DNA of 64,000 bases, taken from NCBI RefSeq assembly GCF_000763885.1, contig NZ_JRKO01000001.1:27501-91500 (forward strand). The letters run 5' to 3'. The position numbers and the translations under genes were made by a program. This DNA is from Paracoccus versutus (GTDB lineage Bacteria > Pseudomonadota > Alphaproteobacteria > Rhodobacterales > Rhodobacteraceae). Shown piece by piece: positions 1,403 through 28,683 of this stretch (positions are counted from its first letter, which is position 1; each line of letters begins with the position of its first letter). Below the pieces are notes generated by a model. The model made no database searches and was not told the origin of the DNA. It saw only the letters and a program-made list of their open reading frames with translations.

Positions 1403-3088
<1,686 letters not shown>

Positions 3089-3601: not shown

Positions 3602-3901
3602 ATGGCCACGACCGCCGAACGCAAGGAATACCCGATCTCGATGCGCTTGCCCGAGGCGGATGTCGCAATGATCGATCGCGCCGCCAGCTTGCGCGGCCGC
3701 TCGCGCACCGATTTCGTGCGCGACGCCGCTGTGCGCGCGGCCGAGGAGGTCGTCATGGAGCAGGGCCTGATCCGGATGAGCCCGGAGGGCTTCGCCGAGT
3801 TCATGGATGTGCTGGCGCGTCCGGCCGCTCCCGTTCCGGAGATGGTAGACGTTCTGAAGCGGCCCGCGCCATGGGAGCCCGGCTACGTGGCGAAGCGGTA
3901 A
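3602..3901 (+). CDS. tacA: DUF1778 antitoxin, TacA-like
   Basis: A 99-aa protein with an N-terminal ribbon-helix-helix (about residues 8-55: YPISMRLPEADVAMIDRAAS then GRSRTDFVRDAAVRAAEEV). This is the signature of DUF1778 antitoxins that pair with GNAT toxins. The C-terminal tail would wrap around and neutralise the toxin. The next gene, 4 bases on, encodes such an acetyltransferase. An operator-like dyad sits just upstream, so autoregulation is likely. It probably stabilises the ICE. Confidence 0.85.
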   Translation: MATTAERKEYPISMRLPEADVAMIDRAASLRGRSRTDFVRDAAVRAAEEVVMEQGLIRMSPEGFAEFMDVLARPAAPVPEMVDVLKRPAPWEPGYVAKR

Positions 3902-3905
3902 GCTC

Positions 3906-4415
3906 TTGCACCTTTCGGGTCCTGAACCGCTCTCTGCCGAACACGATGTGTCCGAGTTCACCTGTGGCAAGCCCACGCTTGACCACTGGCTGAAATCACG
4001 CGCCCTCTCCAATCAGCAGAAGGGCTTCACCGCCGTCCTCGTCGTGCATGAGGCTGGGCGCGTGGTCGGCTTCTACGGCCTCGCGCCTACCGGTGTGGTG
4101 CCTTCGGTTCTGCCGCGTTCGATCAGGACGGGGCAGCCGCCCAACCCGGTCCCCTGTATGCTGCTCGGCCAACTCGCAACCGACACCGGATGGGCAGGGC
4201 TGGGCATCGGGACCGGTCTTGTGAAGCATGCTCTCCAGCGCTGCGTTCAGGCCGCATCGCTGATCGGCGGGCGGGCCTTGCTGGTCAACGCCGTCGACGG
4301 GGAGGCGGCCAAGTTCTGGAGGCGGCGTGGCTTCGAGCCTTCCAGGGATGATCCCCTGGTTCTGCTCCGCTCGATCAGCGACATCGCTGCCTCGCTCGGC
4401 GAGGGCGGTGGGTGA
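3906..4415 (+). CDS. tacT: GNAT-family toxin, TacT-like
   Basis: A 169-aa GNAT acetyltransferase. The family hallmark is a DUF1778 antitoxin encoded directly upstream. Members block translation by acetylating the amino group of aminoacyl-tRNA. Visible features are an N-terminal FTCGKPTLDHWLKSRA segment, the acetyl-CoA loop LATDTGWAGLGIGTGLVKHAL (around 98-118) and a C-terminal FWRRRGFEPS turn. No ATG is available: the frame starts at TTG 3906, 4 bases after the antitoxin stop, implying translational coupling and low expression. Together with tacA this would be an addiction module. Confidence 0.82.
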   Translation: MHLSGPEPLSAEHDVSEFTCGKPTLDHWLKSRALSNQQKGFTAVLVVHEAGRVVGFYGLAPTGVVPSVLPRSIRTGQPPNPVPCMLLGQLATDTGWAGLGIGTGLVKHALQRCVQAASLIGGRALLVNAVDGEAAKFWRRRGFEPSRDDPLVLLRSISDIAASLGEGGG

Positions 4416-4483: not shown

Positions 4484-4960
4484 ATGCAAATTCGTCCTCC
4501 CCCATTGCCCACATTCCACTGGCAGATGTTCGTGCTTTCCTTCGCGCTATTCTGGGCGGTCGGCGGCATGCCCGAACCTGCCAAGGCTCAGCCTCGGCCG
4601 CAGATTGCGAAGTGCGTTCCCGGCCAGGCCCGTACCGCCGACGAATATTGCCTCGTTGATGGCGACACGATCTGGATCGACGGGGAAAAGCTGCGCATGG
4701 AAGGCTACGACACCCCGGAACCGCAAACCCACATCTGTGGTGGCGACGCCGAAATCGCGCTGGCACACCGAGCCAGTGATCGGGTGATCGAGCTGCTGAA
4801 CTCGCACGACTGGACCGTCGAATATGGAGAGCCGGACAACACCGGCACGCGGACGCTCGTGACGATCAGAATCGGTGGTCGCGACATCGGTGACATCCTG
4901 ATTGCCGAAAGGCTGGCCAGACCCTGGCCCGATGGCGAAGAATGGTGGTGCAACCCGTAG
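4484..4960 (+). CDS. secreted thermonuclease-like (SNase) protein
   Basis: A 158-aa protein with a hydrophobic N-terminal segment (about 12-36, ending in an AKA/AQA-type site), so it is probably exported. The mature part shows the staphylococcal-nuclease fold order: VDGDTIWIDGEKLRMEGYDTPE near 58-78, then a GGRDIGDILIAERLARPW stretch near the end. The DGDT and D-PE acidic residues fit the family. The canonical arginine pair is not obvious, so nuclease activity is uncertain. A second, shorter paralogue-like gene sits at 35429. This protein is Cys-containing (CVPG, EYC, ICGG, WWC). Confidence 0.75.
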   Translation: MQIRPPPLPTFHWQMFVLSFALFWAVGGMPEPAKAQPRPQIAKCVPGQARTADEYCLVDGDTIWIDGEKLRMEGYDTPEPQTHICGGDAEIALAHRASDRVIELLNSHDWTVEYGEPDNTGTRTLVTIRIGGRDIGDILIAERLARPWPDGEEWWCNP

Positions 4961-5188
4961 ACGTTAGTTCCACGCCGTCGACCGCCTGGCGAGATCAAAC
5001 TAACTCACTGTGCGCCCCTTCTCTGTCGTTTCGACGATGATCCGCTGATCCTGGAAGCAGCTTTTCAGCGCCCAGTGTGACCAAGGCTTTGCCGTGCGAG
5101 GTAGGCGCGACTTGATGGAGTAGCTGTTCATCGCACTTGCATTCCCGCCGCTCGGATTCGACAACTGGTGTACTCGGGGGAAAATGCC

Positions 5189-7234
5189 ATGCAGCTTGAG
5201 CGTGCTCGCATCAGAAATTTCCGTTCACTTCGCGATGTCGAAGTCGTTTTTGGCGCACACACCGCATTGATCGGCGGCAATGGCGCAGGAAAGTCTTCAA
5301 TCTTGAAGGCTATCGAGAAGTTCTACTCGACTACGAAAAACTGCGACGCTGACGATTTCTTTGGACGCGATCAAGGGCAGCCGATCGAGATTGAACTAAC
5401 CTTTCACCAGCTTAGCGAGCAAGAAGCCGCAGCGTTCGAGGATCGGGTGCGGGATGGTAGGTTGGTCGTCACCCGCATTTTTGACGGAGGTCCATCAAGT
5501 GGACGCTATCATGGTGTCGTTCCACAGATTCCCGACTTCGTCGCTGTTCGGGCTCATTCCGCAGCCACACCCAAGCGCGCTGCTTATAATGCCCTGCGCG
5601 AGAATAACCCACTCTACGCCGACCTTCCCACTGCTGGCAGTGCGGCAGCGGTCGACCAGGCGATGCTAACCTGGGAGGCTGAGCATCCCGATCAGTTGGT
5701 GCTGCTGCCCGACGATGGTCAGTTTTTCGGATTCCAGAACAACAGCCGAGGCAAGCTCCAGCAGCACACGAGCTTCGTGTTCATTCCGGCGGTTCGCGAC
5801 GCATCAGCGGACGCGGCGGACGGCAAGACGAGCGTCATCGGCAAACTACTCGAACTGCTAGTGCGCAGTCAGATCCTTCAGCGGCCGGACGTTCAAGCGT
5901 TCAAGGCGCAGTTGACCGAGGCCTACCAGGCCTTGGTATCCGCCGAAAATATGCCTGAACTCTGTGCGCTCGCTGGGACCCTCACCGCCGACCTGCGGGG
6001 TTTGTATCAAGATGCTGAAGTTTCGTTGGCCTGGCGCGAGGTCGGCGAGATGCCAGTCCCGTTGCCAATGGCGGATGTGTTTCTCAAGGACGAAGGCTTC
6101 GGTGGACCGGTGGACAGGCAAGGTCACGGCCTCCAGCGTGCCTTCATCTTTACACTTCTCCAGCATCTTGCGCGAACTGCCGTGCCGGAGGGCGACGAGG
6201 CACCCCCTGATAGTGACGTTGACGGCAGTGATGACGCGCCCGCTGCGGCTGCGGCTGCGGTCATGGCGCAGGCACCGACGCTTATCCTCGCAATTGAAGA
6301 ACCCGAACTGTATCAGCATCCGACCAAACAGCGGCACTTCGCGGAAGTGCTGCGGGGCTTGAGTAGCGGTACGCTCCCTGGCGCGCAGGGCCACACACAG
6401 GTTATCTTCGGTTCGCACTCGCCAATGTTCATTTCGATGGGGAAGGCCGACGAGATCAGGCTTACCCGGCGCTCGCATTGTGACGACAGTGAATTCAAGC
6501 AATGCAGCCTGCAAGCGCTGGATCTCGGCACCGTTGCGCAGAAGCTCGAACGCGGCTGGAATAAGCCCGCTGGCACTTTCAGTGCACAGACTTTGATGCC
6601 GCGGTTGCACATTCTCGGTGCTGAATTGGCCGAAGGCTTTTTCGCCACCGGTGTGATTCTGGTTGAGGGCCGAAGCGATAAAGCGGCGCTCACCGCGACG
6701 GCGCGGATGCTCGGCGTGAATTTCGAGGCGGCCGGCATCGCCATCCTGTCAACCGAAGGCAAAGCCAATCTCGATCGTCCCTATGTGATTTTTCGCGAGC
6801 TGGGTATTCCAACCTTCATGCTATGGGATTGCGACCAGCAGTTACCCGAGGCTAAACGAACGCCGGCAACCGATCTTGCTTTGAGCAAGCTCGCTAAGCC
6901 GAACGATCAGATCGACGCCGCGCCCACTAGCGACCTCATCAGCGATTGTTACGCGCATTTCGAAAAGACATTGGAGCACAAGCTCAAGGAGGATCTCACG
7001 CCTGAAGTACACACGGCGTGCCTTGCTGCTGCCTGCGAACCCTTTGGTGTGCATCCGAGCAACGATGCGCAGAAGATACCGGAAATCGTCTATCAGACAC
7101 TTCTCCGTGCTAAAGAACAGGGCCACGAGAGCGAGATGCTGAAGAGCCTCGTCCGTGCCATGTGGCGTTTCTTCCGCGATGAGGAAATCCCGGACCCGAC
7201 GGAGGCGCAAGCTCCGGTAGCAGTGGGTGCGTGA
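5189..7234 (+). CDS. OLD-family ATPase with Toprim nuclease domain
   Basis: A 681-aa ABC-type ATPase fused to a C-terminal Toprim domain, the architecture of OLD (overcoming lysogenization defect) nucleases. Walker A is IGGNGAGKSS (about 28-37). Walker B is LILAIEEPELYQHP around 369. Toprim begins VILVEGRSDK around 490 and has the acidic LWDCDQ near 546. OLD proteins are nucleases used in phage defence, for example with UvrD-like partners in Gabija. Here the partners are instead a Mre11-like phosphoesterase and a Rad50-like ATPase just downstream. I chose ATG 5189 because GGGGGA lies 7 bases before it. A GTG at 5168 would add 7 residues. Confidence 0.85.
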   Translation: MQLERARIRNFRSLRDVEVVFGAHTALIGGNGAGKSSILKAIEKFYSTTKNCDADDFFGRDQGQPIEIELTFHQLSEQEAAAFEDRVRDGRLVVTRIFDGGPSSGRYHGVVPQIPDFVAVRAHSAATPKRAAYNALRENNPLYADLPTAGSAAAVDQAMLTWEAEHPDQLVLLPDDGQFFGFQNNSRGKLQQHTSFVFIPAVRDASADAADGKTSVIGKLLELLVRSQILQRPDVQAFKAQLTEAYQALVSAENMPELCALAGTLTADLRGLYQDAEVSLAWREVGEMPVPLPMADVFLKDEGFGGPVDRQGHGLQRAFIFTLLQHLARTAVPEGDEAPPDSDVDGSDDAPAAAAAAVMAQAPTLILAIEEPELYQHPTKQRHFAEVLRGLSSGTLPGAQGHTQVIFGSHSPMFISMGKADEIRLTRRSHCDDSEFKQCSLQALDLGTVAQKLERGWNKPAGTFSAQTLMPRLHILGAELAEGFFATGVILVEGRSDKAALTATARMLGVNFEAAGIAILSTEGKANLDRPYVIFRELGIPTFMLWDCDQQLPEAKRTPATDLALSKLAKPNDQIDAAPTSDLISDCYAHFEKTLEHKLKEDLTPEVHTACLAAACEPFGVHPSNDAQKIPEIVYQTLLRAKEQGHESEMLKSLVRAMWRFFRDEEIPDPTEAQAPVAVGA

Positions 7235-7267
7235 TCCATGTGTGGCACTGTAACGAGGAACTGATTC

Positions 7268-8395
7268 GTGGCGACGCTCAAGATCATCCATACGGCTGAC
7301 TGGCAGCTCGGAAAGCCGTTCGGGCGCTTTCCGCAGGAGGTGCGTAGTGCGTTGGCTGAGGCTCGCCTCGATGCCATCGATCGCCTCGGTGCTGCGGCAA
7401 TATCCAGCGGTGCCACGCACATCGTCGTCGCCGGTGATGTGTTCGACAACGTCGAACCCGGCGACCGCATCGTCACGCAGATGCTGTCACGTATGCAGCG
7501 GGCGTCGGTCACCTGGTGGCTGATGCCGGGCAACCACGATCATGCGCGAGCCGGTGGACTCTGGAGCAGGCTGCGCGGGCGTGCGCCTGCCTCAGTCCGG
7601 ATCGTGGACACTCCCGAGCCTATTGAGATGGAGCAGGGTGCTTGGCTTCTGCCGGCGCCCCTGGAGCACCGGAAGACGGTGTCCGATCCTTCCGCGGCGA
7701 TGGTCGATATGACGACGCCGCCGGGGGCACTCCGCATCGGTCTCGCACATGGCTCCATCACAGAGTTTGGCGCCACCGGAGAGAGCTCCAATCTGATCCC
7801 GCCGGATCGCGCCAAGTCCGCGGGCCTTGACTACCTCGCGCTCGGGGACTGGCATGGCTTTTTGACGGTTGGCGACCGGACCGCTTACAGCGGGACCCCT
7901 GAAATTGACCGGTTCGGGCGCGATGAGCCGGGCGGCTGCATCGGCGTGAGCCTGCGATCCAACGAAACGCCCGAGCTGCAGCGGATCGAGACCGGTCGAT
8001 ATCGCTGGATGTCGCGCCGCTGGAGTATGGAGAACATGGAAGACTTGGACCGTGAACTCGCCGCGCTCCGCAGCGAGGCGCGTTTGTCGGACGTGCTCCT
8101 TTCGCTCCATCTCGTCGGTGTGGTGAGTCTCGCCGACCGCGTCACGATGACGTCGGCCGTCCAGGACTGTCTGGCGCACGAACTGCGGCATTTGGAACTC
8201 GACGCGGATGGCCTGACCGCGCGTCCGACGGCAGAGGACGTCGCCCAAATCGATGTCCAAGGTGCGCTCGCCGGGGCGACTGCTACCCTACAGGCCAGGG
8301 CTACCGGATCGGGTTCCGATGCCCAGATCGCCGCCGCGGCGCTGGAGCGTCTCTATGTCGAGGCGATGCGATTCGATGCGGAGGTTGCGCGATGA
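7268..8395 (+). CDS. Mre11/SbcD-like metallophosphoesterase
   Basis: A 375-aa calcineurin-like phosphoesterase of the DNA-repair exonuclease type. Metal-binding motifs appear in order: HTADWQLG (8-15), GDVFD (56-60), GNHDH (88-92), LAHG and GDWHG. The first motif reads D-W-Q where SbcD/Mre11 usually has D-x-H, so one metal ligand differs from the classical set. The stop overlaps the start of the next gene (ATGA), so it is translationally coupled to an SMC-like ATPase, as in sbcD-sbcC or yhaO-yhaN. It should form a nuclease-ATPase complex with that protein. The start is GTG 7268. Confidence 0.85.
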   Translation: MATLKIIHTADWQLGKPFGRFPQEVRSALAEARLDAIDRLGAAAISSGATHIVVAGDVFDNVEPGDRIVTQMLSRMQRASVTWWLMPGNHDHARAGGLWSRLRGRAPASVRIVDTPEPIEMEQGAWLLPAPLEHRKTVSDPSAAMVDMTTPPGALRIGLAHGSITEFGATGESSNLIPPDRAKSAGLDYLALGDWHGFLTVGDRTAYSGTPEIDRFGRDEPGGCIGVSLRSNETPELQRIETGRYRWMSRRWSMENMEDLDRELAALRSEARLSDVLLSLHLVGVVSLADRVTMTSAVQDCLAHELRHLELDADGLTARPTAEDVAQIDVQGALAGATATLQARATGSGSDAQIAAAALERLYVEAMRFDAEVAR

Positions 8396-11019
8396 TCCTC
8401 AAATCCCTGGAGGTCGAGAACTTCCGCAAGTTCCGCGAACCGCTACGCATCGACGGCTTCACCGACGGTTTGAACATCGTAGTCGAGCCGAACGAGACGG
8501 GCAAATCTACCCTATTGGAGGCCCTGCGTGCGGCCTTCTTCATCCGCTACTCCGCCAAGACCGAACTCGTCCGTTCCTATGTCCCGACTGGTGATGACGT
8601 GGCGCCCCGTGTCACTGTCGGCTTCGGCCTCAACGGGCAGACTTGGAGGCTCGAGAAGCAGTTCATGAAGTCTCCCTCCGTGCGACTTACCGGCGCGAGC
8701 GGGCGACGAGAGAGCGATGCGGCCGAAGAAGCGCTGCAGGAGCTGCTCGGATTCGAGCGGGGCAACAACCGGGGCAGCGATCCCGAAACGCGCGGGCCCC
8801 TTGGCATGCTCTGGGTCGAGCAGGCGACGGCACTCTCCGTGGAGAGTCCAAACCGCATCGTGCGCGATACCGTTCGGGGAGTGCTCGAGGCGGAAGTCGG
8901 CGCGGTGACGGGTGGTCGACGCTTTGACGCGATCCGGGCCAGCATCGAAGCGGCATATTCAGCGCTGCGCACATCGGCGACGGGCAAGTCGCGCGGCGAC
9001 TTAGCGGTGGCAGAGGCTCGCGTGTCCACGGCGACGGCTGCCCGCCAGGCGGCCGAGACCAACTTCCATGAATACGAGAACACTCTCACCGAGTTGGACG
9101 CGGCGAGGTCACGGCTTAGGATTATCGAGCGTGATCTCGTCGACCCAGAGGCGGCGGAGCAGCGAAAAAAGCTCGAGGCGGACCAGAAGGTCGCGGAGAC
9201 CGCCTCTCTGCGGTCGACTGCGGCGGAGGCGCAATTCGGACGCGCCGACGAGGTCGCGAAGACGGCTTCGTCGAGGATCGAGCGATTGGACGCAGCCGAG
9301 GCTCGCGTCGGATCCGCCGGCACATACCTCGAAGAGAAGGCTCGTCTGCGGGACGAAGCCAAGGCTGAGGCTGCTCGTGCCGGTGAGGAGGAAAAATCAC
9401 TCCGCGCCGCGCTCGACGAGGCTCGCGCGGAAAGGGAGAAACACGAGGAGGCACTGTCCTCCGCACGCGCGCGATTGCGCGGGTTCGCTAATGCCGCGGG
9501 CGCTCGTCGCGCGATCGATGCGCGAAAAGCTCTAGCCGAGCTAGAGGAGCGTGAGCGTGCGCTGGTTGATGACTCCGCCGGGGCCGTCGATAGTGACGAC
9601 CTTGAGGAGATTACCGAACTCGAGCTTGCCGCCATCCAGGCACGCGCCCGGTTCGAAGCAGGCGCTGTGAAGGTAGAAGTCGAACTCGGGGCGGGCGCAT
9701 CTTTGAGGATTGACGGGTTGACGACCGACGTCACCAGCGTTGACGTCCTCAAGACCACCAAGTTCGAGTTGGGTGATGCGGGCAGCCTAGTCGTGCGCCC
9801 GCCGCAGGGTTCGGGTCAGTCCATTGAGGCCGATCTTGCAGCGGCGACGGAAGAACTCGCTTCCGCCTTGCGGTCGCTCGGCATCAAGTCGCATGCGGAG
9901 GGCGTGGCCCGGAACGAACGGGCCTCCGCTGCCAAGCGCGAGTTGAAGGCGCTCCGGACACAGATCGCCTCGGCATGTCCTGGAGATCCGACAATCGGGT
10001 TGGCGCCCGGGGCAGATGCCCTGCGCGCCTTCGTGGCCGAGCTGGGCGACATCGCCGACGTTGTCGCCCCAACCGACAATGTCGACACGCTGGAGAAGGC
10101 GGTGGTCGACGCCAAGCTCGCCGAGGCTGCCGCATCCGGAAAGCGCGAAGACGGGAGGACGGCTCTGTCGAAGGCGGAGAGTACGCTCGCAACGGCCGAA
10201 GCCGATTATTCCGCAGCCATCCGCGAATCCGAGGCTGCGGCTGAAGATCTCCGGAACCTCCTAGAGATCGGGGATCGGGAAACGCTCGAAGCGGCGCGCG
10301 GTGAGGCTCAGCGGGAGCGTGCCGCGAAGTTCGAAGCTCTCGAGAAGGCGCGCGAAAGCGCCACGTCTTTCGACGCCGACGCTATCCGACGCCGCATTGT
10401 GAACCTCGATCGTGCCGCCAGCCGGGCCGGCGAGGAACGACTTGAACTGACCGCCCGGATCGCGTCGCTCGAATCCACGATCGTTAGGGAAGGGACAAAC
10501 GGGCCTGCCGGTCGCCTTGCCGAAACGCGGGAGGAAGAGGAGGCCGCGATCGCCGCTTGCGATCGTTTGCGGCATGAGGCCGACATGCTTGAGGTGCTCC
10601 GCGAGGCGCTGTCGGATGCCGCGAATGAAGCGTCGAGGACATTCCTCGCACCCGTCACGGCTCGGGCTAGTCGATACATCCAGCAGCTTCTTCCCGGATG
10701 TGATCTGTCATTCAACGAGGAGCTCGGGCTGACCGGCCTCACGAGGGCGGGGATCGATGAATCCTGTGGTGATCTCAGTCGAGGCACGCAGGAGCAGTTG
10801 GCGATATTGACTCGGCTCGCGTTTGCGGACCTCCTGCTCGAGGATGGAGCGCCGATCTCTCTGATCCTCGACGACCCTCTCGTCTATTCCGATGATGCCC
10901 GCTTGGAGACGATGACCGACATCCTGCAGGACGCTTCGAAGCGGATGCAGGTGATACTTCTCACGTGCCGGTCGAAGGCTTTTCGTCACGTCGAAGCCAA
11001 TAGGATCACGCTGAGATGA
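8392..11019 (+). CDS. Rad50/SbcC-like (YhaN-type) ATPase
   Basis: An 875-aa SMC-like ATPase. The N-terminus LKSLEVENFRKFREP leads into Walker A PNETGKST (33-40). The middle (about 200-700) is a long Ala/Glu/Arg-rich coiled coil. The C-terminus has the signature LSRGTQEQLAILTRLAFADL near 795 and Walker B LILDDP near 827. The whole fits AAA-type partners of SbcD-like phosphoesterases. No clear CxxC zinc hook is visible in the coiled-coil apex. In its place is a small globular-looking section at about 410-480. The gene overlaps the upstream phosphoesterase by 4 bases. With the OLD-like gene it makes a three-gene nuclease block. Confidence 0.85.
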   Translation: MILKSLEVENFRKFREPLRIDGFTDGLNIVVEPNETGKSTLLEALRAAFFIRYSAKTELVRSYVPTGDDVAPRVTVGFGLNGQTWRLEKQFMKSPSVRLTGASGRRESDAAEEALQELLGFERGNNRGSDPETRGPLGMLWVEQATALSVESPNRIVRDTVRGVLEAEVGAVTGGRRFDAIRASIEAAYSALRTSATGKSRGDLAVAEARVSTATAARQAAETNFHEYENTLTELDAARSRLRIIERDLVDPEAAEQRKKLEADQKVAETASLRSTAAEAQFGRADEVAKTASSRIERLDAAEARVGSAGTYLEEKARLRDEAKAEAARAGEEEKSLRAALDEARAEREKHEEALSSARARLRGFANAAGARRAIDARKALAELEERERALVDDSAGAVDSDDLEEITELELAAIQARARFEAGAVKVEVELGAGASLRIDGLTTDVTSVDVLKTTKFELGDAGSLVVRPPQGSGQSIEADLAAATEELASALRSLGIKSHAEGVARNERASAAKRELKALRTQIASACPGDPTIGLAPGADALRAFVAELGDIADVVAPTDNVDTLEKAVVDAKLAEAAASGKREDGRTALSKAESTLATAEADYSAAIRESEAAAEDLRNLLEIGDRETLEAARGEAQRERAAKFEALEKARESATSFDADAIRRRIVNLDRAASRAGEERLELTARIASLESTIVREGTNGPAGRLAETREEEEAAIAACDRLRHEADMLEVLREALSDAANEASRTFLAPVTARASRYIQQLLPGCDLSFNEELGLTGLTRAGIDESCGDLSRGTQEQLAILTRLAFADLLLEDGAPISLILDDPLVYSDDARLETMTDILQDASKRMQVILLTCRSKAFRHVEANRITLR

Positions 11020-11300
11020 GCAAACGGATGGATGCGGCGAACCGCTACAGGCTCGCCTTCACTGAAGCGGAGGAGGCGCTGGTCGCACGGATCGATTTGC
11101 GTTGATCGCATGCCAACCATGCCGAGGCCCGTGCTGCCTACCTCGCGAACCAAGCCGATCTTGGATATGTTGAGATCGCTGAGAGAGCGGGACGCCGTGC
11201 CTGCTCAACGGATCAGCTATTGGACCCAGATTATCAGCCTGGACGCTTGAAGGGCTCATATGAGCAGCCGTTCGAGCGCAATGATTGCCGGAGCGAGGAA
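11016..11300 (+). pseudogene. fourth ORF of the nuclease block, interrupted by TGA
   Basis: An ATG at 11016 overlaps the stop of the ATPase gene (ATGA), as the other genes in the block do. It encodes 29 codons (MSKRMDAANRYRLAFTEAEE...) and stops at TGA 11103. The same frame then stays open for about 90 more codons with ordinary codon use (for example HAEARAAYLANQADLGYVEI and DPDYQPGRLKG). One nonsense change therefore seems to have cut a gene of roughly 95-120 codons. I do not recognise the product. It could instead be a real 29-aa peptide followed by chance open frame. Confidence 0.45.
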
Positions 11301-11302
11301 AT

Positions 11303-11665
11303 CTATACTGGCCTTCCCGCGAGGCGCTCGTCGAGAACCGGCTCGTCCCAGGTGCGCGTCACCCCGAGCCACTTGTCGATCACCGCCTGAAACTGGGGCT
11401 CTGCGAAACAGGTCTGGAACGTGTAGAGGCGATTGACCACTTGCCGCATCAGGTCGCGCATCTCCTCATCGTCGAACCGCGACACGCTTCCCCAGGGGAT
11501 GTGGTTGCCGTCGGCGTCGATGACGAAGACATCGGAATAGTCACCGGTCTTCGTGACCGGGACCGGCCCCGCATGCAGGTCCTCCAGCATGCTGTTGCGG
11601 ACGCAGATCATCGCCATCGCCTTGGCGAGCGTCGCCGCTAACTGTTCTTCTTCCTTCCGGCCCAT
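11303..11665 (-). CDS. conserved hypothetical protein
   Basis: A 120-aa acidic protein that I do not recognise. It begins MGRKEEEQLAATLAKAMAMICVR and has a middle GDYSDVFVIDADGNHIPW, suggesting an alpha/beta fold. I chose the start at 11665 because GGAGG lies 6 bases before it on the minus strand. An upstream ATG at 11683 has no such site. It follows the SRAP gene by 20 bases on the same strand and is probably co-transcribed with it. Confidence 0.6.
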   Translation of the reverse strand: MGRKEEEQLAATLAKAMAMICVRNSMLEDLHAGPVPVTKTGDYSDVFVIDADGNHIPWGSVSRFDDEEMRDLMRQVVNRLYTFQTCFAEPQFQAVIDKWLGVTRTWDEPVLDERLAGRPV

Positions 11666-11685: not shown

Positions 11686-12375
11686 TCAGAGGCCCGGCAA
11701 CATGCCATCGGCGGCTGCGCTCGCTGGCGTCTCCGCGATCACCAGCCGCTCGTCGGGCAGCGGCCGTTGCAGGTCCTTCGCTTCCTTCCAGTCGGCGGTT
11801 AGCCAGGTCTCGACTTCGTCACGGCCCGTCAGGATGACGGGCATGGCCTTCGGATGGATCGGTTTCACCACGCCATTGGCCTCGGTCGTCAGGAAGGCGA
11901 ACAGCTGATGATCGCCCGGACGCGGGGTCCGGTTCGATCCGCGGGTTCCGCGCCATGGCGTCCAGATTCCCGCGAAGAAGAACAGGGGCTGGGTCTCATC
12001 GAGGGCGAACCAGTGCAGCGGTTTGCGCTTCGTGACCGGATCGGGCTTTTGCCCATATTCGGAAAAGGCGGTGGCCGGGACCACGCTGCGATGCTCAACT
12101 CCGAGCCATTTGCGCCAATGGGGGCTGGCCGTGTTGCGGATATTGGTGACGCCGGTGTCCGGTGCATCGCGGGACTTCAGATATTCGATGGGCGTCGGCA
12201 TGCCCCAGGTCAGCGAAGCCAGTTCCCGTCCGCCATCGGTGTTGCGCACCACCGGAGCCGGCCGGTCGGGATAGACGTCGATCGAAGGTTCGAGATTGCC
12301 GATGCTGTCATGGGTGGCGGCCACGAAATCCCTGATCGCCTGCTGATTGGTCGTAATGCGATACAGGTTGCACAT
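11686..12375 (-). CDS. yedK: SRAP (YedK/HMCES) abasic-site protein
   Basis: A 229-aa SOS response-associated peptidase-fold protein. HMCES/YedK proteins cover abasic sites in single-stranded DNA by a thiazolidine link through Cys2. Visible residues: Cys2 right after Met, Asn78 (NIRNTASPHWRKW), Glu106 (FSEY) and His174 (KPIHPKAMPVIL), the expected active-site set. Length is normal. It is divergent from imuA-imuB-dnaE2, and a LexA box lies between them, so SOS control of both directions is plausible. AAGGAGAG lies about 10 bases upstream of the start. Confidence 0.93.
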   Translation of the reverse strand: MCNLYRITTNQQAIRDFVAATHDSIGNLEPSIDVYPDRPAPVVRNTDGGRELASLTWGMPTPIEYLKSRDAPDTGVTNIRNTASPHWRKWLGVEHRSVVPATAFSEYGQKPDPVTKRKPLHWFALDETQPLFFFAGIWTPWRGTRGSNRTPRPGDHQLFAFLTTEANGVVKPIHPKAMPVILTGRDEVETWLTADWKEAKDLQRPLPDERLVIAETPASAAADGMLPGL

Positions 12376-12475
12376 CGCCCCACTACTCTCCTTGCGAATA
12401 CTTTACGCCACCATAGGGCATCGCGCGCCGTCGATCACTTCCGGGATGGCCGAGATTGACTCTCGACCCACAAGA

Positions 12476-12490
12476 GAACAAATAAAGAAC
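12476..12490. promoter_or_regulatory. LexA (SOS) box
   Basis: GAACAAATAAAGAAC is an exact GAAC-N7-GAAC direct repeat, the alphaproteobacterial LexA operator (GTTC-N7-GTTC on the other strand). It lies 49 bases before the imuA ATG and 100 bases before the divergent SRAP start. It is AT-rich against a GC-rich background, so chance is unlikely. It should repress imuA-imuB-dnaE2 until DNA damage. Confidence 0.85.
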
Positions 12491-12538
12491 ATAGCAACAG
12501 AATCGACCAGTGCAAAGCCCCGGAGACGCCATCCTCAT

Positions 12539-13300
12539 ATGCCCAGCCGTGCCGACAGCCCAGCCATTGCCGAACTTCGGGCGCGCATCGCGCGGCTCGA
12601 AGGCGATGGCGTGCGTCCGCACGAGGTGCTGCCCTTCGGGATCGCGCCGCTGGATCGCAAGCTGCCCGGTGGCGGACTGGCGCTCGGATGCCTCCATGAA
12701 GTCGCCGGAGGCGGCAACGGGGCGGTGGATGGCGCGGCTGCCGCCTGTTTCACCGCCGGGATCGCCGCCCGCACCGCCGGCCAGGTGCTCTGGTGCGTGG
12801 CGCTCCAGGATCTCTTCGCACCGGGGCTGGAGCAGGCCGGATTGCCGCCCGGCCGGGTGATCTTCGTCGAAGCCGGGGACGACAAGGCGACTCTCGCCTG
12901 TATGGAGGAAGGGCTGCGGCATGGCGGGCTGGGGGCGGTCGTCGGTGACGTCGCGCGCCTGCCGATGCCCGCCTCGCGGCGGCTGCATCTGGCCGCGAAA
13001 GGTTCGGCGACGATCTGCATCGCGTTGCGCCGCTGGCGGCGGCAGGCGGAGGCGAGCGATTTCGGGCAGCCGACGGCGGCGATGACCCGCTGGCGGATCT
13101 CGGCGCTGCCGTCCGCGCCCCTTCCGGTTCCCGGTGTTGGACGGCCGCGCTGGCTCGTTGAGTTGATCCGGGCGCGGGCGGGCGAATGTCTCGATATCGA
13201 ACTGGAGGCGTGCGATGGCTCGGGTCATCTCTGTCTTCCTGCCGAACTGGCCGACAGACCGGTTGCGGCGGAAGGCGGGCGACGCAGCGCCGCCCGGTGA
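12539..13300 (+). CDS. imuA: ImuA, SOS mutasome protein
   Basis: A 253-aa RecA-like protein without obvious Walker catalysis, the ImuA family of alpha-, beta- and gammaproteobacteria. Typical landmarks are an N-terminal helix (AELRARIARLEGDG), LPFGIAPLDRKLPGGGLALGCLHEV, and a later [10 protein letters not shown] segment. I chose ATG 12539 because everything upstream would cross the LexA box and lacks family sequence. It overlaps imuB by 86 bases in another frame. ImuA, ImuB and DnaE2 together do error-prone translesion synthesis after DNA damage. Confidence 0.9.
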   Translation: MPSRADSPAIAELRARIARLEGDGVRPHEVLPFGIAPLDRKLPGGGLALGCLHEVAGGGNGAVDGAAAACFTAGIAARTAGQVLWCVALQDLFAPGLEQAGLPPGRVIFVEAGDDKATLACMEEGLRHGGLGAVVGDVARLPMPASRRLHLAAKGSATICIALRRWRRQAEASDFGQPTAAMTRWRISALPSAPLPVPGVGRPRWLVELIRARAGECLDIELEACDGSGHLCLPAELADRPVAAEGGRRSAAR

Positions 13301-14738
13301 GGCGCCGCTGGTCATCGCCGGAAAGGAGAAGAACCGCCGGGTGGTGACGGCGGCCGATCCGGCCGCGCAGGCGCTCGGCCTGCGCGCCGGAATGCCTGTC
13401 ACCAAGGCCCAGGCGATGGTGCCCGGCCTCCACATCGAGCCCGCCGACCCGCGGGCCGACCTGGACAGCCTCGAACGCCTCGCGCTCTGGGTGCTGCAAC
13501 GCTTCTCACCTATCGTCGCCGCCGACGCGCCGGACGGGATCGTCATCGACGCGACCGGCGCCGACCATCTGCATGGCGGTGAGGCGGCCATGCTGGAGGT
13601 GCTGACCGGTCGGCTTGTCATGTCCGGCGTCACCGCCCGTGCCGCCATTGCCGATAGCTGGGGCGCGGCCCATGCGCTGGCGCGCTACGCGGCCGATCCG
13701 CTGTTTGTCGCCCCTCCCGGCGAAACCGTCCCGGTCCTCGCGCCGCTGCCGCTGCAAGCACTGCGCCTGCCGCCCGCGATCGCGGTGGGGTTGAATGACC
13801 TGGGCTTTGTCCGCATCGGCGACCTGATCGGGCAGCCCCGTGCGCCCCTGACCCGGCGCTTCGGCCCGGAGCTCTGCCGGCGTCTCGATCAGGCCCTGGG
13901 TGCGGTCGCCGAACCCATCGAGCCGATCCGACTGGAGGAGCTGGTCTCCGTCCGCCGCGTCTTCGCCGAACCCATAGGCGCCGCCGAGACCATCGCGCGC
14001 TATATTCGCAAGCTGGTCATGGCGCTCTGCGAGGCGCTCGAAGGGCGGGGTCTTGGCGCGCGCCGTCTCGACCTGCTCTGCTACCGCGTCGACAACCGGG
14101 TCGAGACGGTGCGCATCGGTCTGGCCATGCCGGTGCGGAATCCCGCGCGCCTGACCCGGCTTCTCTGCGACAAGATCGAGACGATCGCGCCAGGCTTCGG
14201 CGTCGAGATCATGTCGCTGACCGCCACCCTGGCCGAACCGCTGGCCCTGAAACAGGCGGCCAGCAGCCTGATCGAAGAGGGGGCGCCGGATCTCTCCGGC
14301 CTGATCGACACGCTGGCGAACCGGGTCGGCGCGCGGGCGGTCTATCGCTTCGCCCCGGTGGCGAGCGATGTGCCCGAACGCTCGGTCCGCCGCCTGCCGG
14401 CGCTTGCCGAGGATACGGGCGCAGGCTGGCCGGACCATTGGCCGCGCCCCTCGCGGCTGCTCTCCCAGCCGGAGCCGATCGAGACCATGGCGCTGCTGCC
14501 GGACCATCCTCCGAACTGGTTCTCCTGGAAGGGCGTGCGCCGCCGTGTTCGCCGGGCCGACGGCCCCGAGCGCATCTTCGGGGAATGGTGGAAACGCGAT
14601 GCCGAGCTCATCGCTGTGCGGGACTATTTCCGGGTCGAGGACGATGCCGGCGAACGCTTCTGGATCTTCCGCTCCGGCGATGGCGAGGATGCGGCCACCG
14701 GCTCGCATCGCTGGTTCCTGCACGGGATATTCGGATGA
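13215..14738 (+). CDS. imuB: ImuB, Y-family polymerase-like protein
   Basis: A 507-aa DinB/UmuC-fold protein. It begins [18 protein letters not shown]. Family landmarks are [23 protein letters not shown] near 50-72, [17 protein letters not shown] near 106, and a C-terminal [18 protein letters not shown] segment. ImuB proteins lack polymerase active-site acidic residues and act as the hub linking ImuA, DnaE2 and the beta clamp. ATGA overlap joins it to dnaE2, so the three genes form one SOS operon under the LexA box at 12476. Confidence 0.92.
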
Positions 14739-17700
14739 GCGCGCCCGCTTACGCCGAATTGCAGGTGACGTCGCATTTCTCCTTCCTGCGCGGCGCGTCC
14801 TCGGCCGAGGAGCTGTTCGCCGCGGCGGCCGCGATGGGGATCGAGGCGCTCGCCGTGACCGATCGCAACACGCTGGCCGGCATCGTGCGCGCCCATGAGG
14901 CGGCGAAGGAGGCGGGGGTGCGGCTGATCGTCGGCTGCCGCCTCGATCTTGCCTGCGGCATGTCGGTGCTGGTCTATCCGACCGACCGGGCGGCCTATTC
15001 ACGGCTTTGCCGATTGCTGTCGCTGGGCAAGGGGAGGGCGGGCAAGGCGCGCTGTCATCTCGAATGGGACGATCTGGTCGCCTATGGCGAGGGGTTGATC
15101 GTGGTCCTGGCGCCGGACCTCGCCGACGAGACCTGCGGTCTGCGGCTGCGGCGCCTGCGCGATGCCTTTGGCGATCGCGCCTATCTCGGCCTGACGCTGC
15201 GCCGGCGGCCCAATGACCAGATGCGCCTCTGGGAGCTGTCGACGCTCGCTGCGGGCCTAGGTGTGCCCACCGTCGTGACCAATGACGTGCTCTTCCATGA
15301 GCCCGGACGCCGCATCCTGCAGGATGTCGTCACCGCGATCCGGCACAATCTCACCGTCGATGCGCTCGGCACCCGGCGCGATCGCCATGCCGACCGCTAT
15401 CTGAAGCCGCCTGCCGAAATGCACCGGCTCTTCGCGCGCTGGCCCGAGGCTTTGGCCCGGACGCGTGAGATCGCGGATCGCTGCCGCTTCTCGCTCGACG
15501 AGCTGCGCTATCAATATCCCGAAGAGCGCGACGATCCGGCGCTGACCCCGCAGGAGACCCTGGAGCGGCTGACCTGGGAGGGCGCGGCGAGCCGCTATCC
15601 CGAGGGTGTCCCCGACGAGGTGACAGCGGCGCTGAAGCATGAGCTGGCCCTGATCGGCAAGCTCGACTACGCGCCCTACTTCCTGACGGTGAACAGCATT
15701 GTCCGCTTCGCCCGGTCGCGCGGCATCCTCTGCCAGGGGCGCGGATCGGCCGCGAACTCGGCCGTCTGCTATGTGCTCGGTATCACCGCGATCGATCCCG
15801 GCCGCAACGATCTCCTCTTCGAGCGTTTCGTCTCCGAGGAGCGCCGGGAGCCGCCGGACATCGACGTGGATTTCGAGCATGAGCGGCGCGAGGAGGTGAT
15901 CCAGTGGGTCTATGAGCATTACGGCCGCGAGCGCGCCGCGCTAACCGCCACCGTCATCCGCTACCGCTCCAAGGGCGCGCTGCGGGACGTCGGCAAGGCC
16001 CTGGGGCTTCCCGAAGACCTGATCCAGACGCTGTCCGGCCAGCTCTGGGGCTGGTCCGAGGCCGGTGTGACCGAGCAGCAGCTCCGCGATCTCAATCTCA
16101 ACCCGCAAGATCGCCGATTGCGCCTGACGCTCGAACTGGCCGCCCAGCTTCGCGGCGCGCCGCGGCATCTGTCGCAGCATCCGGGCGGTTTCGTGCTGAC
16201 CCACGACCGGCTCGACGATCTCGTCCCCATCGAGCCCGCGGCGATGGAGGGGCGCCAGATCATCGAATGGGACAAGGACGATATCGACGCGCTGCGCTTC
16301 ATGAAGGTCGATGTCCTGGCGCTCGGCATGCTGAGCTGCATGCGCCGGGGGCTGGACCTGCTGGCCGAGCACAAGGATATCCGCCTCGATCTGGCGTCGA
16401 TCCCGGCCGAGGATCCGCGCACCTATGCGATGATCCGCAAGGCCGACACACTCGGCACCTTCCAGATCGAGAGCCGGGCGCAGATGTCCATGCTGCCGCG
16501 CCTGAAGCCCCGGACCTATTACGACCTGGTGGTGCAGGTCGCGATCGTGCGGCCGGGGCCGATCCAGGGCGATATGGTTCATCCCTATCTGCGCCGGCGC
16601 GAGGGTCTGGAAGAGGTCGACTATCCCCGGCCCGAGCTGGAGAAGGTGCTGGGCAAGACGCTCGGCGTGCCGCTGTTCCAGGAACAGGCGATGCGCGTTG
16701 CCATCGAATGCGCGGGCTTCACCGCTGGCGAGGCCGATCTCCTGCGCAAGAGCATGGCGACCTTCAAGCATACCGGCGGGGTCTCGAAGTTCCGCGACCG
16801 GCTGATCTCGGGGATGATCGAGCGTGGCTACGAGCAGGACTTCGCGGAGCGGACCTTCCAGCAGCTCGAAGGCTTCGGCTCCTATGGTTTTCCGGAAAGC
16901 CATGCGGCGAGCTTTGCGCTGATCGCCTATGCCTCGGCCTGGCTCAAATGCTGGCACCCGGATGTCTTCTGCGCTGCGCTCCTCAACGCCCAGCCCATGG
17001 GCTTTTATGCGCCGGCCCAGATTGTGCGCGACGCGCGCGAGCATGAAGTGGAGGTCCGCCCGGTCTGCATCAATGCCTCCCGCTGGGACTGCACGCTGGA
17101 GCCGACCGGAGACGAAAGCCGATTCGCCGTCCGCCTCGGGCTGCGGATGGTCAAGGGTCTCGCCAATGCCCATGCCGCCGCCATCGTCGCGGCCCAGGGC
17201 GATGAGATGTTCACCTCGGTCGACGATCTCTGGCGGCGGGCGGGTGTACCCGTGGCGGCGCTCGATCAGATCGCGGCGGCCGACGGATTCCGCCCGGCGT
17301 TCGGTCTGGCCCGGCGCGAGGCGCAATGGGCCATCAAGGGGCTGCGCGACGAGGAACTGCCGCTCTTCGCCGCCGCCTCGGAGCGCGAGGGACGGACCGT
17401 TCCGGAACTCGACGAGCCGGCGATCGCGCTCAGAGCGATGCCTGCTGGCCGCGAGGTGGTCGAGGATTATGGGCATATCGGCCTGTCGCTGCGTCGCCAT
17501 CCGGTCTCCTTCCTGCGCGAGGACCTGGCGAGGCGCCGGATCGTCACCTGCGCCGAGGCGATGGCGGCCCGTGATCAGCGCTGGCTGGAGGCTGCCGGGA
17601 TCGTGCTGGTGCGCCAACGCCCCGGTTCGGCCAATGGCGTCATGTTCATCACGCTCGAGGACGAGACCGGCATCGCCAATCTCGTCGTCTGGCAGAAGAT

Positions 17701-17914
17701 TTTCGAGCGCTATCGCCGGGTCATTCTCTCATCGAGCATGATCGCCGTGCGGGGCCGCGTTCAGCGCGAGGGCGAGGTCGTGCATCTCGTCGCCCATCGG
17801 ATCGTCGATCTGTCGCGGGATCTGGCGACTGTCGTGCAGCGCGAGGTGGCGACGGACGGGCAGCAGGGGCCGGGGGCCGGCGGTATCAGGGTGAAGGCGC
17901 GGGATTTTCGGTAA
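14735..17914 (+). CDS. dnaE2: DnaE2, error-prone DNA polymerase III alpha
   Basis: A 1059-aa C-family polymerase. The N-terminal PHP domain starts [22 protein letters not shown]. The catalytic palm contains [21 protein letters not shown] and [21 protein letters not shown], with the paired catalytic aspartates. The DnaE2-typical [20 protein letters not shown] region and C-terminal OB fold ([10 protein letters not shown]) follow. It does translesion synthesis with ImuA and ImuB. The start is set by the ATGA overlap with imuB. Length and domain order are normal, so the mutasome looks intact. Carriage on an ICE means SOS mutagenesis can be transferred. Confidence 0.95.
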
Positions 17915-19117: not shown

Positions 19118-19174
19118 GTGACGGGTTGAGTGCTGGAGGAGTGGCCTCCGGCGCCCGTCGCGGAGATCATCCCG
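19118..19174 (+). ncRNA. structured leader type A1 (radC-motif-like) of ardC
   Basis: GTGACGGG (19118-19125) pairs with CCCGTCGC (19154-19161). Inside it CTGGAGG (19133-19139) pairs with CCTCCGG (19145-19151) around loop AGTGG. The outer stem ends against the GCGGAG ribosome site 9 bases before the ATG. A further small hairpin (ACGG/CCGT) precedes it. Equivalent leaders occur at 20590 and 35873 with compensatory changes. The published alphaproteobacterial radC RNA motif precedes antirestriction, integrase and DNA-binding genes, so this may be a member. Confidence 0.65.
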
Positions 19175-20131
19175 ATGGCCAGACAGGACCGCGCTCGCCC
19201 AGGCGGCGCCCGCAGCAATCTCTATGACGACATCACCGACAAGATCATCGCCGAGCTGGAGGAAGGACGGCTTCCCTGGGTCCAGCCTTGGGGGACTGCG
19301 GCGAAAGCGCCGCTTGCCATGCCGCGAAACGCCGCGACCTCGCGGCAGTATTCCGGGATCAATGTGCTGATCCTCTGGGGTGCCGTGGTCCAGAACGGCT
19401 ATCCGACCCAGCATTGGCTCACCTATCGCCAGGCGGCAGCCCTCGGCGGCAATGTCCGTAAGGGCGAGCACGGCACGACGGTCGTCTATGCCGACCGCTT
19501 CACCCCGGAAGACGAGAAGCGCCGAGCCCGCGAGACCGGTGAAGAACCGGGACGCGTCCCGTTCCTGAAGCGTTTCACCGTGTTCAACGCGGCGCAATGC
19601 GAAGGCTTGCCCGAGGACATCGCTGTCGAGGCACCACCACCACCGCCAGGCATGATCGAGCCGAGGGTCGAGGCGCTGATCTGTGCCACTGGTATCGATT
19701 TCCGCATCGGCGGGGATCGCGCCTTCTATGTTCCGGCGCTCGACTATGTCCAGGTGCCGCCACCGGCCGCCTATTTCGAACCGATCAACTGGCACAGGAC
19801 GGCGCTCCACGAGATGGGTCACGCCACAGGCCATGCCTCGCGCCTGGGGCGGGATTTTTCGGGCAGTTTCGGCACGAAGAAATACGCCTTCGAGGAGCTG
19901 GTGGCTGAGATGAACGCGGCCTTCTGCTGCGCCTCGCTCGGCATCGTGCCGACCGTGCGCCATGCCGACTACATCGGCTCCTGGCTGGAGGTGCTGCGCG
20001 AGGATAACCGCGCCATTGTCCGCGCGGCCTCACAGGCCAGTAAGGCGGCCGACTGGCTGCTGGCGCATCTGCCGGCCGAAGATGCCGGGGAACCGGATCC
20101 GGCTGCAATCGACGGGAGGGTCGCGGCATGA
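19175..20131 (+). CDS. ardC: ArdC-family antirestriction protein
   Basis: A 318-aa ArdC-like protein: an N-terminal ssDNA-binding ArdC domain (about 15-130, NLYDDITDKIIAELEEGRLPWVQPW and YSGINVLILW) and a C-terminal zincin-like peptidase domain with HEMGH at 212-216 and a downstream Glu-rich helix (AFEELVAEMNAAF). ArdC proteins protect incoming conjugative DNA from restriction. The start at 19175 follows a structured leader with GCGGAG. A longer frame from 19130 would run through that leader. Its stop overlaps the next gene (ATGA). Confidence 0.92.
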   Translation: MARQDRARPGGARSNLYDDITDKIIAELEEGRLPWVQPWGTAAKAPLAMPRNAATSRQYSGINVLILWGAVVQNGYPTQHWLTYRQAAALGGNVRKGEHGTTVVYADRFTPEDEKRRARETGEEPGRVPFLKRFTVFNAAQCEGLPEDIAVEAPPPPPGMIEPRVEALICATGIDFRIGGDRAFYVPALDYVQVPPPAAYFEPINWHRTALHEMGHATGHASRLGRDFSGSFGTKKYAFEELVAEMNAAFCCASLGIVPTVRHADYIGSWLEVLREDNRAIVRAASQASKAADWLLAHLPAEDAGEPDPAAIDGRVAA

Positions 20132-28308: not shown

Positions 28309-28683
28309 TCAAGGGCGTTTCCTGCCGATGATCGGTATGACGTCGGCGGTGCGGTTATCGCGCCGCCGTTCCATAAGCTGGCACAGCGCGCGGACTTGAC
28401 GATGCTGGGCGAGCACGGTTTCGACGGCGCGCCGCTCCTGTTCGGCCCGGGCCGTCCCCGCCGGCCGATCCGTCGCGTTGCGCCGGGCTCTCGACTCGGC
28501 AACTGCATGGCGGAAGGCTTCCAGCACCTCGGAAGCGCGGTTCGCGGTCGCGCGACTGACACCTGCCTCGATGGCCAGATTCACAACCGTCAGCCTGCCA
28601 TCAGCCACGCGGGGGCACCCATAAAGGAGGCGCGCCATCGCCTCACGAAGCGCCTGTTCCGTGGCTGCACTGACCGGCTTCAT
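28309..28683 (-). CDS. TnpC-like (DUF6262-type) transposition accessory protein
   Basis: A 124-aa protein, the same size as Tn554 TnpC (about 125 aa). It has an N-terminal HTH-like part (LTVVNLAIEAGVSRATANRASEVLEAF) and a C-terminal coiled coil. It overlaps the last recombinase gene by ATGA, so it is the fourth cistron of the recombinase operon. TnpC of Tn554 modulates frequency and orientation of transposition. A similar accessory role is inferred. The start is set by the overlap. Confidence 0.7.
   Translation of the reverse strand: MKPVSAATEQALREAMARLLYGCPRVADGRLTVVNLAIEAGVSRATANRASEVLEAFRHAVAESRARRNATDRPAGTARAEQERRAVETVLAQHRQVRALCQLMERRRDNRTADVIPIIGRKRP

Follow-up and report, generated by a model that had tools for sequence, protein, structure and literature searches.

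A block of three closely packed plus-strand genes in Paracoccus versutus, encoding an OLD-family nuclease (OLD), an Mre11/SbcD-like phosphoesterase (D) and a Rad50-like ATPase (C), is on balance likely to be defence cargo, anti-phage or anti-plasmid, carried by an integrative element and made up of two separable modules that would share one transcript. The block lies in a stretch of 64,000 nucleotides (contig NZ_JRKO01000001.1, positions 27,501 to 91,500), referred to here as the window. The trio is real but is not one fixed system: D and C form a conserved two-gene unit (D-C), which stands alone or joins other defence genes and lies beside other anti-virus genes in a minority of its relatives, and OLD is a cassette of its own. 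The evidence consists of the gene families and their intact motifs, the tight packing of the genes, one related stretch that lacks the block, and the defence-type slot that the block occupies.

Gene packing and cargo slot

An earlier sequence-only reading of this DNA had placed the three genes at the coordinates listed in Table 1, with 33 bases between OLD and D, an ATGA overlap between the reading frames of D and C, and a fourth, broken open reading frame (ORF) overlapping the stop of C, all of which holds in the sequence. A GAGGA-type ribosome site is visible by eye in the 33-base gap, and this gap together with the overlap suggests that OLD, D and C would lie under one transcript; the sole promoter-like match is found directly before OLD and is no better than chance. 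The fourth ORF is open again for about 50 codons after its in-frame TGA. It was considered as a remnant of a DUF4297 gene, a candidate that is not supported, the two pieces giving no convincing match among the collected loci (weak ones at E 0.17 and above), and a search of 72,556 plasmid records with the longer of the two returned its own copy and no other.

A defence role is supported by the position of the block. Related elements share the serine recombinase of the window, diverge, and then resume at the antirestriction gene ArdC. In the Haematobacter element this slot holds genes for a 3'-5' exonuclease, HerA (2e-298), SIR2 (6e-241) and AbiE (AbiEii 3e-99), and the reading frames in the Novosphingobium slot start like the Haematobacter exonuclease, HerA and SIR2; the TacA-type antitoxin/GNAT (TacAT) locus left of the slot is also common to these two elements. 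In P. versutus plasmid pBEN, which gave no TacAT match, the interval between recombinase and ArdC encodes a HamB-like helicase (2e-43), a weakly HamA-like protein (1e-5) and a further protein with a weak restriction-enzyme-like match (9.7e-5). Slot contents were scored by PADLOC for the Haematobacter and pBEN proteins only.

Plasmid pPAN3 of Paracoccus pantotrophus carries the flanks of the block at 93–94% identity, with 40 bases between them and the block absent, and represents either an ancestral empty site or a deletion; no direct repeat was seen by eye at the junction. Since pPAN3 retains the 3' part of the SNase-like gene to the left of the block, this gene looks like element backbone. 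The match of pPAN3 to the window ends leftward beside a transposase-like ORF, so that the left end of its element is lost. Defence cargo had been proposed from the sequence alone, partly on account of nearby toxin-antitoxin and antirestriction loci; a TacA-type antitoxin/GNAT locus and an ArdC gene were confirmed, and the proposal gains from the SIR2-HerA-AbiE or Hachiman-like genes in the slot of related elements and from the block-less pPAN3. A slot that carries defence families in related elements makes it likely that the cargo of the window is of the same kind.

The phosphoesterase-ATPase pair

D is recognised by Metallophos (1e-6) and, as its best NCBIfam model, SbcD (4e-15), scoring 56.3 bits against TIGR00619 (SbcD), under the cut-off of 77.65; it had no match in PADLOC 2023 at E 1. 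The motifs H8-T-A-D11-W-Q13, GD57, GN89-H90-D, H161 and GD194-W-H196 can be read in it, and D11, D57, N89, H90, H161, D194 and H196 are invariant in 32 of 32 aligned D proteins. Canonical Mre11 proteins have metal-site histidines at the positions corresponding to 13 (D-x-H) and 194 (G-H-x-H) of D. At position 194 all 32 rows carry D instead of this histidine. Of 50 aligned D proteins, 22 have Q at position 13, 27 have H and one has C, the N-terminus of this last row being uncertain. The D-W-Q noticed previously in place of D-x-H is confirmed as D11-W-Q13, and the suggestion that it marks a specialised branch stands in part. Damage to D was rejected because D-x-Q is common to 22 of the 50 relatives, but for the same reason it marks much of the family and not the window gene alone. 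Rather than forming a single clade, D-x-Q occupies almost every branch apart from one clade of 23 D-x-H rows, on a tree whose root is not fixed and which leaves the ancestral state unsettled. The single-sequence structure model of D (mean pLDDT 39.4) was not usable.

C is matched by SMC_N just over the cut-off (1.6e-10) and by Rad50 models at about 4e-10, far under their cut-offs, and its 12 NCBIfam matches at E 1 include no SbcC model. Residues 1–50 match AAA_27 (3e-5, 24.2 bits, cut-off 22), and the best PADLOC match is a weak one to LmuB (1.7e-12). The 49 C proteins compared, which are 859–918 amino acids (aa) long, contain no CxxC motif (0/49) and hence no zinc hook, for which reason the pair is termed Mre11-Rad50-like here and not a canonical SbcCD member. 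Walker B ends in D827-D828, without variation across 33 rows, where Rad50-type Walker B motifs usually end in D-E, and the signature reads LSRGTQEQ. A low-confidence structure model of C (mean pLDDT 56.9) runs from a head through a long coil, a strand-rich region (426–469) and a second coil to a head; the strand-rich region would be the apex of the coil, a hint that is too weak to build on.

The sample of the order, 149 genomes with the own one counted, contains C homologues in 19 other genomes; in 19 of 19 D adjoins C and no OLD lies beside the pair. Genome G147, with a C match of 48 residues only, was excluded from this count, and in G110 C is split between two contigs that break at the pair. 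Searched with the window OLD, these 19 genomes gave a best E value of 3.0e-4 (G105). C is matched by 114 and D by 136 of the plasmid records, from which 18 D-C loci, chosen for diversity, were inspected. In three loci (L102, L138 and L143) D and C were located by tblastn. Searching viral contigs with the C alignment returned one 23-kb contig with D beside C and, by eye, an integrase-like ORF, and the stretch of it that was examined had no match to the OLD queries. Judging from these sequences, D-C is an old two-gene unit of hookless Mre11-Rad50-like type.

In a quick tree of 47 D+C rows (midpoint root, deepest forks weak), the window groups with eight plasmid pairs, six of them sphingomonad, at an SH-aLRT of 100. 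The D-x-H clade of 23 comprises 18 genomes from the family of the window, four Hyphomicrobiales plasmids and one Paracoccus plasmid, and two further D-x-H rows lie elsewhere in the tree.

A searched partner family was present within 500 bases and on the same strand in 11 of 53 D-C loci, the window included; in several loci, among them L134, L136, L141, L142 and L148, the stretch covers little beyond the pair on one side. DUF4297 and then HerA adjoin the pair in Polymorphobacter, Sphingobium (which has AbiEii on the opposite side) and Burkholderia, and SIR2 and then HerA in Methylocystis. AAA_13 adjoins it in Maritalea and genome G188, with a weak AAA_13-like match in G212, and DUF3320 in Rhizobium phaseoli and Mesorhizobium. 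OLD does so in 2 of the 53, the window and G424.

Two further associations were observed around the pair. Three D-C pairs have a gene resembling thermonuclease within about 3 kb, in the window, in L107 (6179–6619) and in L130 (13222–13569, minus strand); the L107 copy is Pfam SNase, and the other two were recognised by eye. Genes for a UvrD-type helicase and DUF7665 are found upstream of D-C in two distant clades (L104 1–4575 and L151 1518–7958), with JAB and ThiF genes near this set recognisable in L104 only.

OLD and its meetings with the pair

OLD has AAA_15 (7e-32) and OLD-like TOPRIM (4e-17) domains by Pfam; its best PADLOC model is Old (1.7e-51), with GajA behind at 2e-31, and its nearest solved chain is 6p74, the OLD protein of Thermus scotoductus (1.2e-17). 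Its Walker A is GGNGAGKSS (residue 29), its Walker B is AIEEPE (368), and its TOPRIM motifs are the E in LVEGRSDK (491) and the DxD in WDCD (546), with the usual roles presumed for these residues. The protein therefore has the features of Class 1 OLD proteins, an ABC ATPase and a C-terminal TOPRIM with intact motifs, and the gene directly 3' of it encodes the phosphoesterase and not a UvrD/Rep-like helicase. Class 1 genes are described as single and apart from defence genes, whereas this one is 33 bases from D-C inside a defence slot. The label Class-1 type is kept for the protein alone, because the lone-gene criterion concerns context and not the protein. A second, weak OLD-TOPRIM match was seen in the own genome (G000:C15:19144-19347), within a 297-residue frame, and the OLD query found no relative in the viral contigs.

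PF20469 (OLD TOPRIM) was searched in 33 pair-bearing genomes, the own one included, and was found in 9, lying beside the pair in the own genome and in G424, that is in one of the 32 others. In 385 genomes of the class (own included), OLD at E 1e-10 is present in 6 and C in 15; about 0.2 other genomes with both would be expected if the two were independent, and one was seen, G424, in which they are adjacent. There the order is D-C-OLD, with a 4-base overlap of D and C and OLD 15 bases after, and this OLD is 31% identical to that of the window. OLD has joined D-C twice independently on the tree, with opposed gene orders, OLD-D-C in the window and D-C-OLD in the distant clade of G424. G212, the sister of G424 with an 80% identical C, gave no OLD TOPRIM match.

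A third meeting involves a different pair. On Roseibium plasmid unnamed3, a YhaN-type (AAA_27) pair, only remotely related to D-C (best ATPase alignment 88 residues, 30%), is followed at 381 bases by an OLD 84% identical to that of the window, and the DNA match between Roseibium and the window ends at the OLD gene. OLD seems to meet Mre11-Rad50-like pairs more often than chance alone would predict, although clustering in defence islands may account for it. The Roseibium OLD also overlaps by 4 bases an nSTAND3 gene (L028 12028–14346) with a weak Mrr-like N-terminus, and OLD-nSTAND3 is possibly a two-gene system.

The sequence-only reading had grouped OLD, D and C as one candidate system, which OLD homologues occurring mostly without the other two would contradict. 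As a general rule the three-gene system was rejected: although two independent meetings of OLD with D-C favour it, 51 of 53 D-C loci are without adjacent OLD in the stretches examined, and in 12 of 12 other OLD loci neither D-C nor the YhaN-type pair has a homologue in the stretches examined, which are short for L109, L165 and L189, so that the contradicting pattern is largely what is seen. Related OLDs lie amid restriction-modification (R-M)-like genes on Aeromonas and Citrobacter plasmids, and a Gabija-type OLD is 2 kb from the D-C pair in Sphingomonas NY01. On the Citrobacter plasmid (L166 4277–8293), DUF4391 and DUF2130 genes closely flank the OLD relative within an R-M-like cluster, contrary to the picture of Class 1 OLD genes as solitary.

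Comparison with known systems

P2 Old is counted among the Class 1 OLD nucleases, and the window OLD resembles this class in its ABC ATPase, C-terminal TOPRIM, motifs and best PADLOC model, and in having no adjacent GajB-type helicase gene. Escherichia coli YbjD is a Class 1 OLD according to the title of PMC13261556. Class 1 OLD genes are described in a review as single and apart from other candidate defence genes (PMC10568477), unlike the window OLD, which is packed with an Mre11-Rad50-like pair in a defence slot. The block shares with Gabija an OLD-type nuclease, but no UvrD-like helicase gene lies beside the window OLD, and its GajA score in PADLOC is under that of Old.

D-C is similar to SbcCD/Mre11-Rad50 in its adjacent, overlapping genes for a metallophosphoesterase and a coiled-coil ABC ATPase, but window-type C proteins are hookless, within the length range given above and D-D in Walker B, and window-type D proteins have G-D-x-H and, in many members, D-x-Q. 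A phosphoesterase and an SMC-like ATPase are likewise combined in the AAA_27 pairs, which we take to be YhaO-YhaN and to which the Roseibium pair belongs, although the window C is weak on AAA_27 (3e-5 vs 3e-65 for Roseibium).

Lamassu combines a Rad50-like ATPase with varied effectors, according to PMC10586767. D-C is similar in having a Rad50-like ATPase with varied partners and in the LmuB match of C, and differs in that the block has an Mre11-like nuclease and that C is longer (875 aa vs about 650); no Lmu match was found among the best 25 of the 140 PADLOC matches of OLD, and none for D. SIR2-HerA, a two-gene system, adjoins D-C in Methylocystis and fills the slot of a related element, but is not seen in the block. 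DUF4297 and HerA, which adjoin D-C pairs elsewhere, are not seen in the block either; DUF4297-HerA is described as a two-component system in PMC11291478, whose text is without SbcC, Mre11 or Rad50.

That no described system joins OLD with an Mre11-Rad50-like pair, as the sequence-only reading had it, agrees with the open-access literature, in which no paper on this combination was found. Nor was a description found there of a Mre11-Rad50-like pair that is hookless and D-x-Q and is packed together with a Class-1-type OLD; the parts themselves are of known kinds.

Proposed mechanism and alternative explanations

If the block is defence cargo, a C dimer would clamp DNA ends or hairpins in an ATP-dependent manner and D would cut them, with ends or hairpins arising in phage or plasmid replication as the expected trigger. 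OLD, as the second module, would degrade or nick the DNA opened by D-C, or would kill the infected cell, and both modules would attack the same replicating foreign DNA. Function, target and co-operation between OLD and D-C are read here from gene content and sequence comparison.

Several observations weigh against a defence role. No searched partner is present within 500 bases in 42 of the 53 D-C loci, and the partner families were drawn from the same loci and the plasmid loci picked by hand, making the counts descriptive. In the 18 loci from the family of the window, no searched partner was found within about 7–9 kb on each side, and many neighbours look metabolic (by eye, from crude ORFs); such settings suit a house-keeping role in DNA-end repair. 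The adjacency of OLD and D-C may also be accounted for by clustering in defence islands. It is conceivable, though not very likely, that D-C, as an SbcCD-like paralogue, serves the element or the host in accessory DNA-end repair or maintenance, with OLD as an unrelated neighbour sharing its promoter. The 19 other genomes of 149 that carry the pair, 18 of them showing no searched partner, agree with this, as do the ImuA-ImuB-DnaE2 type gene set that follows the block and the record annotations that tag some C genes with double-strand break repair. However, the slot in related elements carries recognised defence families, and searched defence neighbours are commoner at D-x-Q loci (8/22) than at D-x-H loci (3/27), in a non-random selection, with 0/4 at loci where the motif is undetermined or other (one of which, L190, reads D-W-Q by eye). 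The corresponding Fisher p of 0.03 to 0.05 was not taken as proof, since neither the loci nor the query families were independently chosen. Island clustering, taken further, would make the block a chance neighbourhood in which OLD and D-C are functionally unconnected. OLD and D-C are sparsely distributed and mobile, related OLDs lie among other defence-type genes in Aeromonas and Citrobacter, and the Gabija-type OLD of Sphingomonas NY01 lies near a D-C pair, yet one co-bearing genome of the class where about 0.2 were expected, with the genes adjacent, makes pure chance unlikely, even though island clustering could still yield it.

At the other extreme is an obligate three-protein system in which D-C would sense DNA ends and switch on OLD as the effector, with neither working alone. 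At least two independent encounters of OLD with D-C, separated by 33 bases in the window and 15 in G424, the 84%-identical OLD of Roseibium, which lies 381 bases behind another Mre11-Rad50-like pair, and the absence of the block as one piece from pPAN3 all point in this direction. The 51 D-C loci without adjacent OLD and the 12 OLD loci without D-C do not, and neither do the differing gene orders, the nSTAND3 gene overlapped by the Roseibium OLD and the sister genome with an 80%-identical C and no OLD TOPRIM match, and a system of this type seems quite improbable. A bolder form of the defence-cargo reading, which we put forward tentatively and as rather unlikely to hold, is that D-C, above all its D-x-Q members, forms the common centre of a modular defence family not yet described. 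It would be a hookless sensor-nuclease that recognises ends or hairpins in foreign DNA and has interchangeable effectors, these being OLD here and AAA_13, DUF4297-HerA, SIR2-HerA or a DUF3320 helicase elsewhere. It would resemble Lamassu, in which one Rad50-like protein is used with many effectors, but D-C keeps an Mre11-like nuclease of its own. If true, machinery for repairing DNA breaks would have become, more than once, a portable immune module that combines with a variety of killer enzymes, and OLD genes of Class-1 type would have an example of a multi-gene setting. Related elements that carry the block, that lack it, or that have known defence families instead would offer a clean test case.

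The element and its other features

The element, which the sequence-only reading took to be an ICE and which may be one, has a serine recombinase beside tRNA-fMet, a tyrosine recombinase, ArdC and a weak match to ParB-like proteins. The window begins inside an rRNA operon that ends in tRNA-fMet, and identity to a Chelativorans contig starts beside the tRNA at base 1400, after 323 unlike bases in that contig, suggesting that this is the insertion site; the Falsochrobactrum contig starts at the matching base and is uninformative on this point. The Chelativorans and Falsochrobactrum copies are 99.1–99.2% identical to the window across the 17.6 kb compared, and P. versutus pTAV4 matches at 100% over at least 25 kb from the window start, so that these copies represent one recent element and not independent cases. 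In 198 genomes of the family, a 2,001-base backbone query was matched in full in the own genome only, the next best match being 74% over 665 bases. The features of the element and the block are listed in Table 1.

Table 1. Features of the element and its cargo block, with positions in the window.
Feature	Position	Strand	Remarks
tRNA-Met (CAT), tRNA-fMet, end of rRNA operon	1403..1479	+	likely insertion site
Large serine recombinase (Resolvase + Recombinase + Zn ribbon)	1436..3088	-	Pfam
TacA-type antitoxin (3602-3901) and GNAT gene (3906-4415)	3602..4415	+	element backbone, left of slot
Possible SNase-like nuclease gene	4484..4960	+	by eye; no Pfam match at 0.01
Cargo block (OLD, D, C, broken ORF)	4953..11309		missing as one piece from pPAN3
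OLD-family ATPase-TOPRIM nuclease, Class-1 type	5189..7234	+	681 aa, ATG start at 5189
Mre11/SbcD-like metallophosphoesterase (D)	7268..8395	+	375 aa, GTG start at 7268
Rad50/SbcC-like coiled-coil ABC ATPase (C)	8392..11019	+	875 aa
Short broken ORF overlapping ATPase stop (ATGA)	11016..11256	+	in-frame TGA after 29 codons
ArdC antirestriction protein	19130..20131	+	element backbone, right of slot

Two regions outside the block were also noted. On its 3' side (12347–17914), lie genes that match the ImuA, DNA polymerase Y (ImuB) and error-prone DNA polymerase genes annotated on many alphaproteobacterial plasmids. Further along (28680–34068), three minus-strand genes, the first of which encodes a tyrosine recombinase, look like a separate recombinase insertion.

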